A stretch of DNA of 64,000 bases, taken from NCBI GenBank assembly GCA_002683825.1, contig NYUD01000072.1, positions 1 through 64,000 of the forward strand, read 5' to 3'. The stretch comes from Planctomycetota bacterium. GTDB lineage: Bacteria > Planctomycetota > UBA1135 > GCA-002686595. The notes under the pieces are model-generated. The model did no database searches. It was not told the DNA's origin and was given only the letters and a program-made list of their open reading frames with translations. Within the stretch, counting starts at the first letter, position 1. Each line of letters opens with the position of its first letter. The translations under genes and the position numbers were made by a program. Positions 48,555-55,228 of the stretch are shown here, piece by piece.

Positions 48555-51110
48555 TCAGGCCACGGCGGCGTGCTGCTCCACCGTCGCCTTCGAAACCTCC
48601 AGCACGTAGCCGCTCTCGCTAAAATCGATCCGCGCCGTGTCGCCGGGGGCGAGCTCTCCGGAGAGGATTGCGTCGGCCAGTCGGTTTTGGACGCGGCGCT
48701 GGATGCAGCGCTTCAAAGGCCGAGCGCCGAACTCCGGATCGAAGCCTTCTTCAGCCAGTGAGTCCTTCGCTTTCTGCGAGAGTTCGATCGAGATCTCCTG
48801 TTCGGCCAGGTGCTTGGCGAGCCGCTTGAGCTGTACGTCGACGATGCAGTGGATCTGAGCCTTTTTGAGAGTGCTGTATTCCAGCACCTCGTCCAGGCGG
48901 TTCAGGAACTCCGGCCGGAAATGTGCCGACAGGGTGTCCTTGCCCCTCAGATTGCTCGTCATCAGGACCAGCGTGTGTGTAAAGTCGATCTGGTGGCCCT
49001 GACCGTCGGTCAACCGGCCGTCATCGAGGATTTGCAACAGGACGTTGAAGACGTCGGGGTGCGCCTTTTCGATCTCATCCAGAAGGATGACCGAGTGCGG
49101 TTTGCGGCGCACGGCTTCGGACAGAGCGCCGCCCTCTTCGTAACCCACGTAGCCCGGAGGCGCGCCGAGCATGCGCGAGACGGAGTGCTTCTCCATGTAC
49201 TCGCTCATGTCGAGGCGTATCATCGCGCTCTCGTCGTCGAACAGGAACTCAGCCACCGCGCGGGCGGTCTCCGTCTTACCTACCCCGGTCGGCCCAAGGA
49301 GCAGGAACGATCCCAACGGGCGGGTCGTTTCCTGGATGCCGGCCCGAGCGCGGCGAACGGCTTCTGCGATCCGCGCCAGGGCTTCGTCCTGACCCACGAC
49401 CCGTTCGGCGAGGCGTTCCTCCATGTGCAGGAGCTTCTCGCGTTCGGTTTCCAGCAAGCGCTGGGCGGGAATGCCCGTCCAGCGCCCGACCACACCGGCG
49501 ATCCCTTCAGCTTCAACCTCTTCGGGCAGCAGGGCGCCCGTGGCTTGCGCCCGCTGCAACCTCTCCCGTGCGTCGCGCACGTCGAGCTCGGAGTCGGGGA
49601 TCTCGCCGTAGCGAATCTGGCTGACGCGCTCGAGGTCCCCCTCGCGCTCGCAGCGGTCGGCTTCCGCGCGCAGGCTCTCGATCAGGGCCTTCCCCGCGCG
49701 AATGCGCGTGATGAGGTCCTTTTCCGCCTGCCAGCGCGCTTGCAGCGCGCTGCGAGCCTCGACCAGGTCCGCCAGCTCGGCCTCGATGGCGGCGAGACGC
49801 TGGGTTTGTGATCCCTCTTTTTGAAGGGCCTTCTTCTCGATCTCCAGCTGGCGAATCCGACGCTCGAGGTTGTCGATCTCCGGTGGCATCGAGTCGATCG
49901 AAATCTTCAATTGAGCGGCCGCCTCGTCGACCAGGTCGATGGCCTTGTCCGGCAGGAAGCGCTCGCTGATGTGCCGATCGGACAGTCGCGCGGCGGCTAC
50001 GAGGGCCTCATCGGTGATGCGCACGCCGTAGTGTGTCTCGTAGCGCTCCTTCAAACCGCGCAGGATCGCGATCGTGTCCTCGACGGTGGGTTCATCGACC
50101 AGGACGGGCATGAAGCGCCGCTCGAGGGCCTTGTCCTTTTCGATGTACTTGCGGTACTCCTCGAGGGTCGTTGCGCCGATGCAGTGCAGCTCGCCCCGCG
50201 CCAGCGCGGGTTTCAGCATGTTGGCCGCATCGATCGCGCCTTCTGCACCGCCGGCCCCGACCAGTGTGTGCAGCTCGTCGATGAAGAGGATCACGTCGCC
50301 GTTTCCCTCGGCGATCTCCTGCAGGACCGACTTCAAGCGCTCCTCGAATTCGCCGCGATACTTCGCGCCGGCCAGCATCGAGCCGAGATCCAGCGCCATG
50401 ATGCGTTTTTGCTTCAGGCCCTCGGGCACATCCCCCGCGACGATGCGGTTGGCGAGGCCCTCGGCGATCGCCGTCTTTCCGACACCGGGATCGCCCATGA
50501 GGACGGGGTTGTTCTTGCGTCGGCGCGAGAGCACCTGCATGACGCGCCGAATCTCGTCGTCGCGGCCGATGACCGGGTCGAGCTTGCCCGCCCGCGCGTC
50601 TTCTGTGAGGTCCCGGGCGAATCGCTCGAGCGATTCGAACGTCGCTTCGGGGTCCTGCGTCGTCACGCGGCTTTGGCCGCGCGCTTCGACCAGGGCGGCC
50701 TCGATGCGTTCGCGTGTCAACTGCCGTGCGGCGAAGAGCTCGCTGATCCCGTGCCCGCCCTTCTCGACCAGAGCGAGCAGCAGGTGTTCGGTCGAGACGT
50801 ATTGATCCCCGAGTCGTTTCGAGTGTGCGCAGGCTGCAGCGAGAACCCCGGCGAGCTCGGCGGAGACCGGCGGCTGGGCTCCGGTTCCGCTCGTCGTCGG
50901 GAGCTTTTTCTCCAGCCGCTCGAGTTCGGTGACGAACAGGGCGGGCTGGCTATCCAGTCGGGAGAAGAGCGCCGCCAGGAGCCCCTCGACGTCGCTCAGG
51001 AGAGCGTGCGCGACGTGGAGAGAGGTGAGCTCGGCGTGGCGCTGTTCGAGGGCGCGGCCGACGGCGGCCTGGAGGATGGATTGGGTCTTTCGGGTGTATG
51101 CGTCTTGCAT
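48555..51110 (-). CDS. clpB: ClpB disaggregase chaperone
   Basis: 851-residue Hsp100 AAA+ protein that works with DnaK to recover aggregated proteins. N-terminal Clp repeats are followed by AAA1 (Walker [19 protein letters not shown]), the coiled-coil M domain ([15 protein letters not shown]) and AAA2 ([24 protein letters not shown]). The middle domain separates it from ClpA and ClpC. It has a GAGGAG ribosome site and, unusually, a -24/-12 sigma-54-type promoter about 20 bases before it, with a palindrome further upstream. No CIRCE-type element was found. Confidence 0.97.
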
Positions 51111-51139
51111 GGTGGTATAGCTCCTCTCGGGGTAGGAAG

Positions 51140-51155
51140 AGCAAGCACGGTGCCA
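51140..51155 (-). promoter_or_regulatory. Sigma-54 (-24/-12) promoter of clpB
   Basis: Minus strand TGGCACCGTGCTTGCT matches the consensus TGGCACG-N4-TTGCW at every position but the G at position 7, with exact GG-to-GC spacing. Transcription would start near 51129, leaving a short leader that contains the GAGGAG ribosome site just before the clpB ATG. The coherent geometry strengthens the call. Confidence 0.65.
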
Positions 51156-51208
51156 AGCCCAAAAGGCCCCTTCCTGCCACCAGAGACGCCCACGTCTGGG
51201 GGGGGCGC

Positions 51209-51241
51209 GGCCATAACGGCAGATGGACTGCCATTATGGCC
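51209..51241. repeat. 14-bp inverted repeat, candidate enhancer upstream of clpB
   Basis: GGCCATAACGGCAG and CTGCCATTATGGCC are reverse complements with a single mismatch, separated by ATGGA. The centre lies about 96 bp upstream of the predicted clpB start of transcription, the usual distance of a sigma-54 activator site. In an alternative reading it is a dapA 3' hairpin, but no T-run follows. Confidence 0.6.
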
Positions 51242-51288: not shown

Positions 51289-52170
51289 CTAGAGCAGTTC
51301 GCACGCCCCGAGCGCTCGCTCGAGGCGCTCGGCGTTCTCGCTCTCGATCTCCACCAGGGGCAAACGCAGTTCCGGGGTGCAATGGCCCAGACGCGCCAGG
51401 GCGGTCTTCAGCGGGGCGGGATTCGTTTCCAGCGCGAGCGCGCGAATCAAGGGCCGTACGGTCTCGAGCGTGTGGGCGGCTCGATCGTCGTCCCGGCCGA
51501 TGGCTTCGATCAGGAGAGCGATCTTCCCGGGCATGAGATTGCCCACGACCGAGACCGCTCCGACGGCTCCGGCCTGGATGCCCTCCACGATCCCATCGTC
51601 GTCTCCGCACAGGGTGTCGATTCCGCGCTCGGCCAGGGCCCTGATCTCTTCGACGCCCGCCGATTCCTTGACGGCGACGACGTTCCCGCAACGCTCACGC
51701 ACCCTCGACACCGTCTCCGGCTCGAGCGCGACGCCCGTTCTCTTGGGAATGTCGTAGAGAATGACCGGCAGCGGCGTGGCGGCTGCAACGGCGCAGAAGT
51801 GCTCGACGATGCCTCGCTGGGGCGGCTGCACGTAGATCGGGGTGGTCACGAGAAGCCCGTCAGCTCCCGCGCCGTGGGCCTCTTGCGCCATTTGGACCGC
51901 CGACCGGGTGGAAGAAGAGCCCACGCCGGCGATGACCGGAATGCGGCCGGCCGCCGCCCCGACGCCGAAGGCGACCACCGACGTTCTTTCCGTACGGCTG
52001 AGTGAGGCCCCCTCGCCCGTCGAACCGGCCAGGACGACGCCGTGGCTTCCACCTTGAACCTGCAGGTCGATGAGCCGGTGCAGGCTATCGAAGTCCACAC
52101 GCCGGTCCCGGAAGGGCGTGGGAAGCGCAACCAGGCTGCCCCGAAAGGGGTTTTCGAGCGTGCCCGTCAT
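51289..52170 (-). CDS. dapA: 4-hydroxy-tetrahydrodipicolinate synthase
   Basis: 293-residue class I aldolase of lysine/diaminopimelate synthesis. Schiff-base Lys in VVAVKESAG, catalytic Tyr in ILYDIPKRTG, and the pyruvate/acceptor loop GSTGEGASLS (Ser replaces the usual second Thr of GTTGE). Track ORF extends 63 residues upstream into pdxJ; the ATG at 52170 (MTGTLENPFRG), overlapping the pdxJ stop by ATGA, is the start. The Ser substitution leaves open a related N-acetylneuraminate lyase/DapA-like activity. Confidence 0.9.
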   Translation of the reverse strand: MTGTLENPFRGSLVALPTPFRDRRVDFDSLHRLIDLQVQGGSHGVVLAGSTGEGASLSRTERTSVVAFGVGAAAGRIPVIAGVGSSSTRSAVQMAQEAHGAGADGLLVTTPIYVQPPQRGIVEHFCAVAAATPLPVILYDIPKRTGVALEPETVSRVRERCGNVVAVKESAGVEEIRALAERGIDTLCGDDDGIVEGIQAGAVGAVSVVGNLMPGKIALLIEAIGRDDDRAAHTLETVRPLIRALALETNPAPLKTALARLGHCTPELRLPLVEIESENAERLERALGACELL

Positions 52171-53042: not shown

Positions 53043-53663
53043 ATGGGAAGCAGCAAGAAAAAGCGGCGCGAGAAAAAGCGAGCCGCGCCGGAGGTCGTCT
53101 CCCGAGGGGAAGCCGGTTCGTGGTACGCCGCCAAGAGACCCGCCCTGCGCTTCCTGTTGATCGTGGGGGGCTTCATGCTCCTGTTCTACGCGATCTTCTA
53201 TACGTCCCCGCAGGACAGCCCCGGGGTCCATGCGGCGATCGAGGCCTATCTGGGGATCTACGCCTCGGTCGCGGGCTTCGTCTTCGATACCTTCGGCTTC
53301 GACGTGCGCGTTTCGAGCACGATGATCTTTCTCGAGGGCCGGGCGGTGAAGGTCGTGCGGGGCTGCGACGCGATGGAGCCGATCGCGCTCTACATCGCCG
53401 CCGTGATCGCCGTGGAGGCCGGCAACGTGCGTTCCAAGCTCATCGGTCTCGCCGTCGGCGTTTCGATGCTCGTTTTCGCGAACCTCCTGCGCATCATCGC
53501 CCTGACCTACATCAACGTGCGCTTCTCCTCGTTCTTCGACACGGCGCACCACACGGTGGGCCAGACGCTCTTCATCCTGTTCACCCTTTCCCTGTGGTTC
53601 GCCTGGGTGGTGTGGGCTTCGAGAGAGGGGAAGGAGCCTGACGATGCCGGTGCTGCCGACTAG
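53043..53663 (+). CDS. xrtH: Exosortase H, IPTL-CTERM-specific
   Basis: 206-residue integral membrane transpeptidase. Cys108 (VVRGCDAMEP), Arg150 (ANLLRIIAL) and His169/170 (TAHHTVGQT) form the exosortase catalytic set; about five membrane helices. The Lys/Arg-rich N-terminus is cytoplasmic. The call as XrtH rests on the small size and on its neighbours: an associated membrane protein overlapping by 20 bases and an IPTL-CTERM protein next. It would cleave the sorting signal and transfer the protein to an envelope acceptor. Confidence 0.87.
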   Translation: MGSSKKKRREKKRAAPEVVSRGEAGSWYAAKRPALRFLLIVGGFMLLFYAIFYTSPQDSPGVHAAIEAYLGIYASVAGFVFDTFGFDVRVSSTMIFLEGRAVKVVRGCDAMEPIALYIAAVIAVEAGNVRSKLIGLAVGVSMLVFANLLRIIALTYINVRFSSFFDTAHHTVGQTLFILFTLSLWFAWVVWASREGKEPDDAGAAD

Positions 53664-54538: not shown

Positions 54539-55228
54539 ATGAAGAAGACCCTGATATTCGCAACCTGCCTCGCCGTCGCCTCGACGGTCGCGGCCCAGAA
54601 GAACGCAACAGCTCCCCCGACGCTCGCCTCCGGCAGCGGTACCGACCACACGGGACAGACGATCGTCCCCGCGACGGTCATCTCCTCGAGCACCTTCGAC
54701 GGCAGCACAGAGACGGTCGTCAGCGTCGCCGGCGAGCAGAGCTGGGACCTCCAAGGCGATCCCTCCAACACCGTTCTCTCCCTCGACATCGGCGCGGGCG
54801 AGGCCGTCACGGGCCTCGGCTGGGACGTCAGCTGCACGACCGTCGGCGGTAGCTGGTTGAACGAGGCCCAGTTCGCGTTCGGCCCCAACGGCGGCGCCGT
54901 CGAAGTGTTCCTCACTCCCTCCCCGACGGGCGGTCCCGGCACGGAATCCAACTCGAGCCCCGTCCTCATTCTCGCTGATCTGGGAATTCCGGACATCGTC
55001 TGCCCGGATGGAACGCTGCTGATCGAGCTCGACGAGACCTTCGACGACGCGGCCGACGCGGTCGACGCCGACTGGACAGCCGGTGGGGTCACCATTCAGC
55101 ACACCGGCGGCGGCGGTGGCGGCGGTGTTCCGACGGTCAGCCAGTGGGGTCTCATGATCCTTACAGCCCTCCTGTTCGGCGGTGTCGTCTGGCGTAGCGT
55201 CAGCCGCAAGACCGCCACGGCGAGCTAG
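54539..55228 (+). CDS. IPTL-CTERM sorting-domain surface protein
   Basis: 229 residues. N-terminal Sec signal (KKTLIFATCLAVASTVAAQ), a Thr/Ser/Gly-rich, acidic beta-type body with few Cys, and a poly-Gly spacer. The C-terminal sorting signal follows: VPTVSQWG (residues 197-204), a hydrophobic helix and a basic end (VVWRSVSRK). This tripartite tail is the IPTLxxWG-CTERM class recognised by exosortase H. It lies 313 bp downstream of the xrtH pair with its own sigma-54-type promoter and a strong terminator, i.e. monocistronic. Probably an abundant secreted or surface-anchored protein; function unknown. Confidence 0.9.
   Translation: MKKTLIFATCLAVASTVAAQKNATAPPTLASGSGTDHTGQTIVPATVISSSTFDGSTETVVSVAGEQSWDLQGDPSNTVLSLDIGAGEAVTGLGWDVSCTTVGGSWLNEAQFAFGPNGGAVEVFLTPSPTGGPGTESNSSPVLILADLGIPDIVCPDGTLLIELDETFDDAADAVDADWTAGGVTIQHTGGGGGGGVPTVSQWGLMILTALLFGGVVWRSVSRKTATAS

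Follow-up and report, generated by a model that had tools for sequence, protein, structure and literature searches.

Bacterial heat-shock control is classically exerted by σ32 or by the repressors HrcA, HspR, and CtsR. A 2025 study in PLoS One (PMC12316311) reported that predicted σ54 promoters are enriched at chaperone genes in the Planctomycetota and the Bacteroidota; in the Planctomycetota, the available part of that paper lists GroEL, GroES, IbpA, GrpE, DnaJ, DnaK, and COG0542 among the enriched categories. That prediction is statistical, was made at the level of COGs, and covers the Planctomycetia and Phycisphaerae. The same part of the text cites Studholme and Dixon (2004) on the enhancer-binding proteins (EBPs) of Pirellula and describes no operator or activator, the string "upstream activat" being absent from the whole text. 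In Myxococcus xanthus, the HsfBA pair, consisting of a histidine kinase and an NtrC-like regulator, directly activates the heat-shock gene lonD (Ueki and Inouye 2002, as cited in the available part of PMC9109919). Finally, heat shock of Rhodopirellula baltica was reported to raise the chaperones but not the σ factor genes, the rpoN transcript being unchanged, which the authors read as pointing to a different cascade (PMC2754498).

A predicted σ54 promoter and paired operators upstream of clpB

The window, meaning the whole 64,000-nucleotide stretch of planctomycete DNA analyzed here, carries on its minus strand clpB (48555..51110), which encodes an 851-residue ATP-dependent disaggregase. The protein gave its best match, over its full length, to TIGR03346 (ClpB) with 1203 bits, slightly under the cut-off of 1232, and contains the Pfam domains Clp_N, AAA, AAA_2, and ClpB_D2-small; COG0542 is the category that covers ClpA/ClpB. 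The next gene upstream is dapA (51289..52170, minus strand; PF00701). By eye only, we also noted in the window a gene for an exosortase-like membrane protein (53043-53663) and one for a secreted protein with an IPTL-CTERM-like PTVSQWG tail (54539-55228).

A preliminary description of this DNA had placed a −24/−12 box directly before clpB and assigned the gene a σ54 promoter. Scored against the consensus TGGCAC-N5-TTGC (−24 GG/−12 GC, 10-bp spacing), the predicted promoter TGGCACCGTGCTTGCT (51155-51140, minus strand) agrees at 11 of 11 positions. It is the sole exact TGGCACN5TTGCW in the window and one of four exact consensus boxes in the 5.4-Mb genome, and 29 nt separate its end from the clpB ATG (51110, minus strand). 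With the usual σ54 spacing, transcription would start ∼12 nt past the −12 element, at about 51130, leaving a leader of ∼20 nt that would hold the Shine–Dalgarno region GAGAGGAG (51120..51130, minus strand). In ∼11 relatives the box lies merely 27 to 30 nt from the clpB start codon, such that the transcript would have little or no leader. The genome contains two rpoN genes, each matching PF04552 (C60:82556-83032 and C114:174094-174567), and no σ70 promoter was found in the clpB upstream region.

A search for ClpB succeeded in 61 genomes. The comparison drew on 47 upstream regions, which came from the window's own family and from additional families in its order. Boxes were counted if they contained GG-N10-GC, agreed with at least 9 of the 11 consensus positions, and lay no more than 170 nt from the start codon. 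Such a box precedes clpB in 44 of the 47 relatives; in 300 rounds of dinucleotide shuffling the mean was 1.28 (maximum 5), and the opposite strand had 0/47. Outside the box, the 170-nt region shows 47% identity versus 44% when shuffled. Because the remaining upstream sequence can hardly be aligned, retention of the box indicates selection and not recent common descent. The preliminary description had set lack of the box in close relatives as grounds for rejecting the promoter; the promoter instead proved to be conserved, and on this evidence σ54 dependence of clpB is very likely.

The preliminary description had also reported a 14-bp inverted repeat upstream of clpB, which it took for an enhancer-like palindrome. 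The repeat is indeed present (51209-51222/51228-51241, 93% complementary), and a predicted upstream activator site is conserved at this place, but the segment 51209-51241 is better described as two tandem TGCCA-N3-TGGCA operators with centers 20 bp apart. The pair resembles one long palindrome because each copy is itself nearly palindromic. The distal predicted operator, GCCATAATGGC (51240-51230, minus strand), is centered at −93 from the −12 G, and the proximal one, GCCGTTATGGC (51220-51210, minus strand), which carries the conserved motif, at −73. In 48 clpB upstream regions we counted 86 sites that matched TGCCA-N3-TGGCA in at least 8 of 10 positions, whereas scrambled palindromes of equal composition averaged 9.4 in the same regions and never exceeded 23. 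The relatives often have the operator in two copies separated by ∼20 bp, at positions near −93 and −72 relative to the −12 G, and in the window's family the operators are mostly found 70 to 150 bp upstream of the −12 element. In family f5 (eight loci), the operator lies just ∼29 to 59 bp upstream of the −12 G, an unusually short distance for a σ54 enhancer. As dapA was detected upstream of clpB in just 6 of the 47 relatives, the operators track clpB and not dapA, which is outside the regulon described below.

The promoter and operator pattern at other chaperone genes

We scanned 61 genomes of the family for the combination of operator and box, using a search that was blind to gene function. 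Matches were obtained in 49 of these genomes, with ∼80 rows compared to 10 for the reversed pattern. Among the 65 places read, 56 precede chaperone genes (groEL2, 20; clpB, 16; the small heat-shock protein gene hsp20, 11; a receiver–groES–groEL operon, 8; dnaK, 1), and the remaining 9 are as many as expected by chance. The association with chaperone genes is thus nearly exclusive, and because the scan took no account of gene function, this functional coherence provides the strongest evidence.

Within the genome from which the window derives, the tandem operator pattern has one other clear site, before a 10/11 box and an hsp20 gene. All five of its chaperone units (clpB, hsp20, dnaK, receiver–groES–groEL, and groEL2) have two operators and a box of at least 10/11, with scores of 11/11 for clpB and 10/11 for each of the others. 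The dnaK box ends in TTTGTT instead of TTGC, GT replacing the −12 GC. No strict operator was present within the loci of the three other exact consensus boxes of the genome. The preliminary description had called σ54 control of clpB unusual. The gene does not stand alone, since the predicted promoter and operators recur at dnaK, the receiver–groES–groEL operon, hsp20, and the second groEL; these data support the view that clpB belongs to a chaperone regulon with a common predicted σ54 promoter and operators. That such control would be unusual is correct for bacteria generally, but enrichment of predicted σ54 promoters at chaperone genes had already been reported for the Planctomycetota (PMC12316311).

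Two features of the groEL units were also observed. The gene that heads the groES–groEL operon under its predicted σ54 promoter encodes a single-domain receiver, a possible phosphorelay feedback element; this arrangement is found at ∼110 kb on contig C92 of the same genome and at six further loci. Several relatives (four loci) have, upstream of the second groEL, whose product begins MAKQMVFE, a CAAGT...ACTTG-type inverted repeat that lies between the operator and the box and may be another operator.

The genomes were also searched for established heat-shock regulators. HrcA was found in 0/61 genomes, and RpoH, as represented by the proteobacterial model TIGR02392, exceeded the cut-off in 0/61. 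The subthreshold TIGR02392 matches are σ70-family factors, and these genomes may therefore contain an unusual heat-shock σ factor. CIRCE, HAIR, CtsR, and σ32 sites occurred at background level in the five chaperone units of the genome and in the relatives' clpB upstream regions, and control through any of these sites was rejected on this basis.

A candidate activator encoded beside dnaK and alternative readings

Thirteen genes in the genome encode a well-scoring σ54 activator domain. Four groups of these activators (EBP groups A to D) have orthologs in all six further genomes checked, one of which is only 2.4 Mb. Group D alone has operators adjoining its gene, in 7/7 genomes. Indeed, in all seven, which represent two families, the order is histidine kinase gene, EBP-D gene, operators, and dnaK, with the operators directly downstream of the EBP-D gene. 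The kinase gene that precedes EBP-D encodes a soluble NtrB-like protein. EBP-D itself, an enhancer-binding protein of the NtrC type, consists of a receiver domain (PF00072), a σ54 AAA+ domain (PF00158), and a Fis-type HTH (PF02954), and the GAFTGA motif is present. Its scores fall under the NCBIfam equivalog cut-offs for AtoC (442/714), NtrC (417/558.6), and ZraR (385/760), and by this test it is not an NtrC, AtoC, or ZraR ortholog proper. Its named relatives are from Planctomycetota MAGs, with 62 to 73% identity; at the loci of three of them, and at that of a more distant one, the linkage to dnaK with operators is preserved. Among the EBP groups, the HTH of EBP-D (LGIGERTLYRK) shows the strongest conservation, and its sequence is largely kept across the phylum. 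Taken with the linkage, this conservation makes EBP-D the best activator candidate, and a protein that probably binds the operators.

Other activators were considered and set aside. Groups A, B, and C have no adjoining operators, and for group B the frame read contains no HTH either. The window itself encodes an EBP of receiver–AAA+–Fis type (58.5 to 60 kb, minus strand; C92:59050-59541), for which no reciprocal best match was found in six relatives; a role for it as clpB activator is unlikely. A conserved σ54 activator of ∼300 residues, in which the frame read shows no HTH, was also observed; each of the seven genomes compared has it.

Beyond the order, one Planctomycetia MAG has the strict pattern before both dnaK and hsp20, and a Thermoguttaceae MAG has it before hsp20. 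In the Phycisphaerales MAG OFTM74, the pattern precedes clpB and hsp20, which diverge from a common operator, each with its own σ54 box. The strict pattern was absent before chaperone genes in the Brocadia, Scalindua, Gemmatales, and Rhodopirellula genomes tried. EBP-D homologs are present in genomes of this kind, those four included, so that either the link does not hold throughout the phylum or the pattern demands too close a match.

If the regulon is real, its activator could still be another EBP, either the receiver-type group A or the FHA/GAF-type group C, and the signal would then not pass through the dnaK-linked kinase/EBP pair. Both groups possess Fis HTH domains and are retained throughout the seven genomes, and the distance between the group A gene and the nearer of the two rpoN genes is ∼3 kb. 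We consider this unlikely, however, as it is the group D loci, and no others, that the operators adjoin, before dnaK in every one of the seven genomes, and as the group D HTH is the one best preserved.

The remaining alternatives concern the upstream elements themselves. Palindromic operators near chaperone genes are a classical repressor design, and TGCCAN3TGGCA could be the target of a heat-labile repressor, akin to HrcA/CIRCE, acting on some other promoter, with GG-N10-GC incidental. The short spacing of ∼29 bp between the upstream operator and the −12 element in family f5 would suit such a repressor. The distance of most operators in the window's family from the box argues against this, as do the conservation of the box in both position and sequence and the failure to find a σ70 promoter or HrcA, and the repressor model appears quite improbable. 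The inverted repeat follows the dapA stop at a distance of 48 nt and has the potential to fold into a hairpin, as expected of a dapA terminator, but it lacks a T run, no terminator was predicted there, and the operators persist in relatives in which dapA is not upstream of clpB. This explanation was rejected, and we regard it as highly improbable. A consensus match that fell by accident beside a random palindrome might be suspected from the window alone, which has 31 matches with two or fewer mismatches where 20 are expected. The recurrence of the box in the relatives, far above the shuffled expectation, together with the return of chaperone genes by the blind scan, refutes chance and leaves it a negligible probability.

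Proposed mechanism and comparison with known systems

In the model that we favor, the gene immediately preceding that of EBP-D supplies a soluble histidine kinase of the NtrB-like kind, which would control EBP-D. The latter, with its receiver, AAA+, and Fis-type HTH domains, would bind the tandem TGCCAN3TGGCA operators 70 to 150 bp upstream of −12. By looping, EBP-D would then remodel the closed σ54 complex at the −24/−12 box. The targets would be clpB, hsp20, dnaK, receiver–groES–groEL, and groEL2, and the signal would be heat or misfolded protein, heat being suggested by the target genes only. The phosphorelay may in turn receive feedback from the small receiver protein that is produced together with GroES/GroEL. 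That a chaperone regulon is served by σ54 polymerase and the EBP-D/kinase pair at tandem operators is, as judged from sequence comparison, a likely reading; under it, σ54 would truly transcribe the chaperone genes and EBP-D, not another EBP, would occupy the operators. A broader proposal is that the whole chaperone response (clpB, dnaK, groESL, groEL2, and hsp20) of a large planctomycete lineage, and perhaps more widely in the phylum, is run by a dedicated two-component σ54 system next to dnaK that replaces RpoH and HrcA, with the coexpressed receiver as feedback. To this we lean, though only slightly.

If true, textbook control would have been replaced and the planctomycete heat-shock response would be mechanistically different, with core chaperones apparently under an ATP-dependent, off-by-default σ54 switch with kinase input. 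The conserved kinase/EBP pair would gain a function, and heat shock without HrcA or recognizable RpoH would be explained. The analysis names specific predicted operators and promoters, as well as a candidate regulator. The unchanged rpoN transcript in R. baltica counts against the model; the level of σ54 need not change, however.

The idea of σ54 control of planctomycete chaperones is already published (PMC12316311), and that study, like this one, predicts σ54 promoters at chaperone genes; in the available part of that paper the analysis is one of COG-level statistics. What is added here is the operator, the candidate kinase/EBP module by dnaK, conservation at the level of individual promoters, the absence of HrcA, and a predicted unified regulon. 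Our literature search returned no description of an activator of this kind. The regulon shares its target genes with σ32 (RpoH) and HrcA/CIRCE systems but, unlike these, is found in genomes lacking HrcA, RpoH above cut-off, and CIRCE or σ32 sites above background. It resembles HsfBA in the pairing of a histidine kinase and an NtrC-like regulator on heat-shock genes, a fit that here rests on gene arrangement. As described in the available part of PMC9109919, however, HsfBA uses a hybrid kinase and targets lonD, secondary-metabolite, and pilus genes, whereas core chaperones are the predicted targets here and the kinase and regulator genes precede dnaK. Similar to NtrB/NtrC, a soluble kinase gene is followed by that of a receiver–AAA+–Fis EBP, with tandem operators upstream of the promoter; the system differs in its TGCCAN3TGGCA operator, its chaperone targets, and an EBP that falls under the NtrC, AtoC, and ZraR cut-offs. 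We class the predicted regulon with those of the EBP/σ54 kind; its targets are unusual and form a coherent group.
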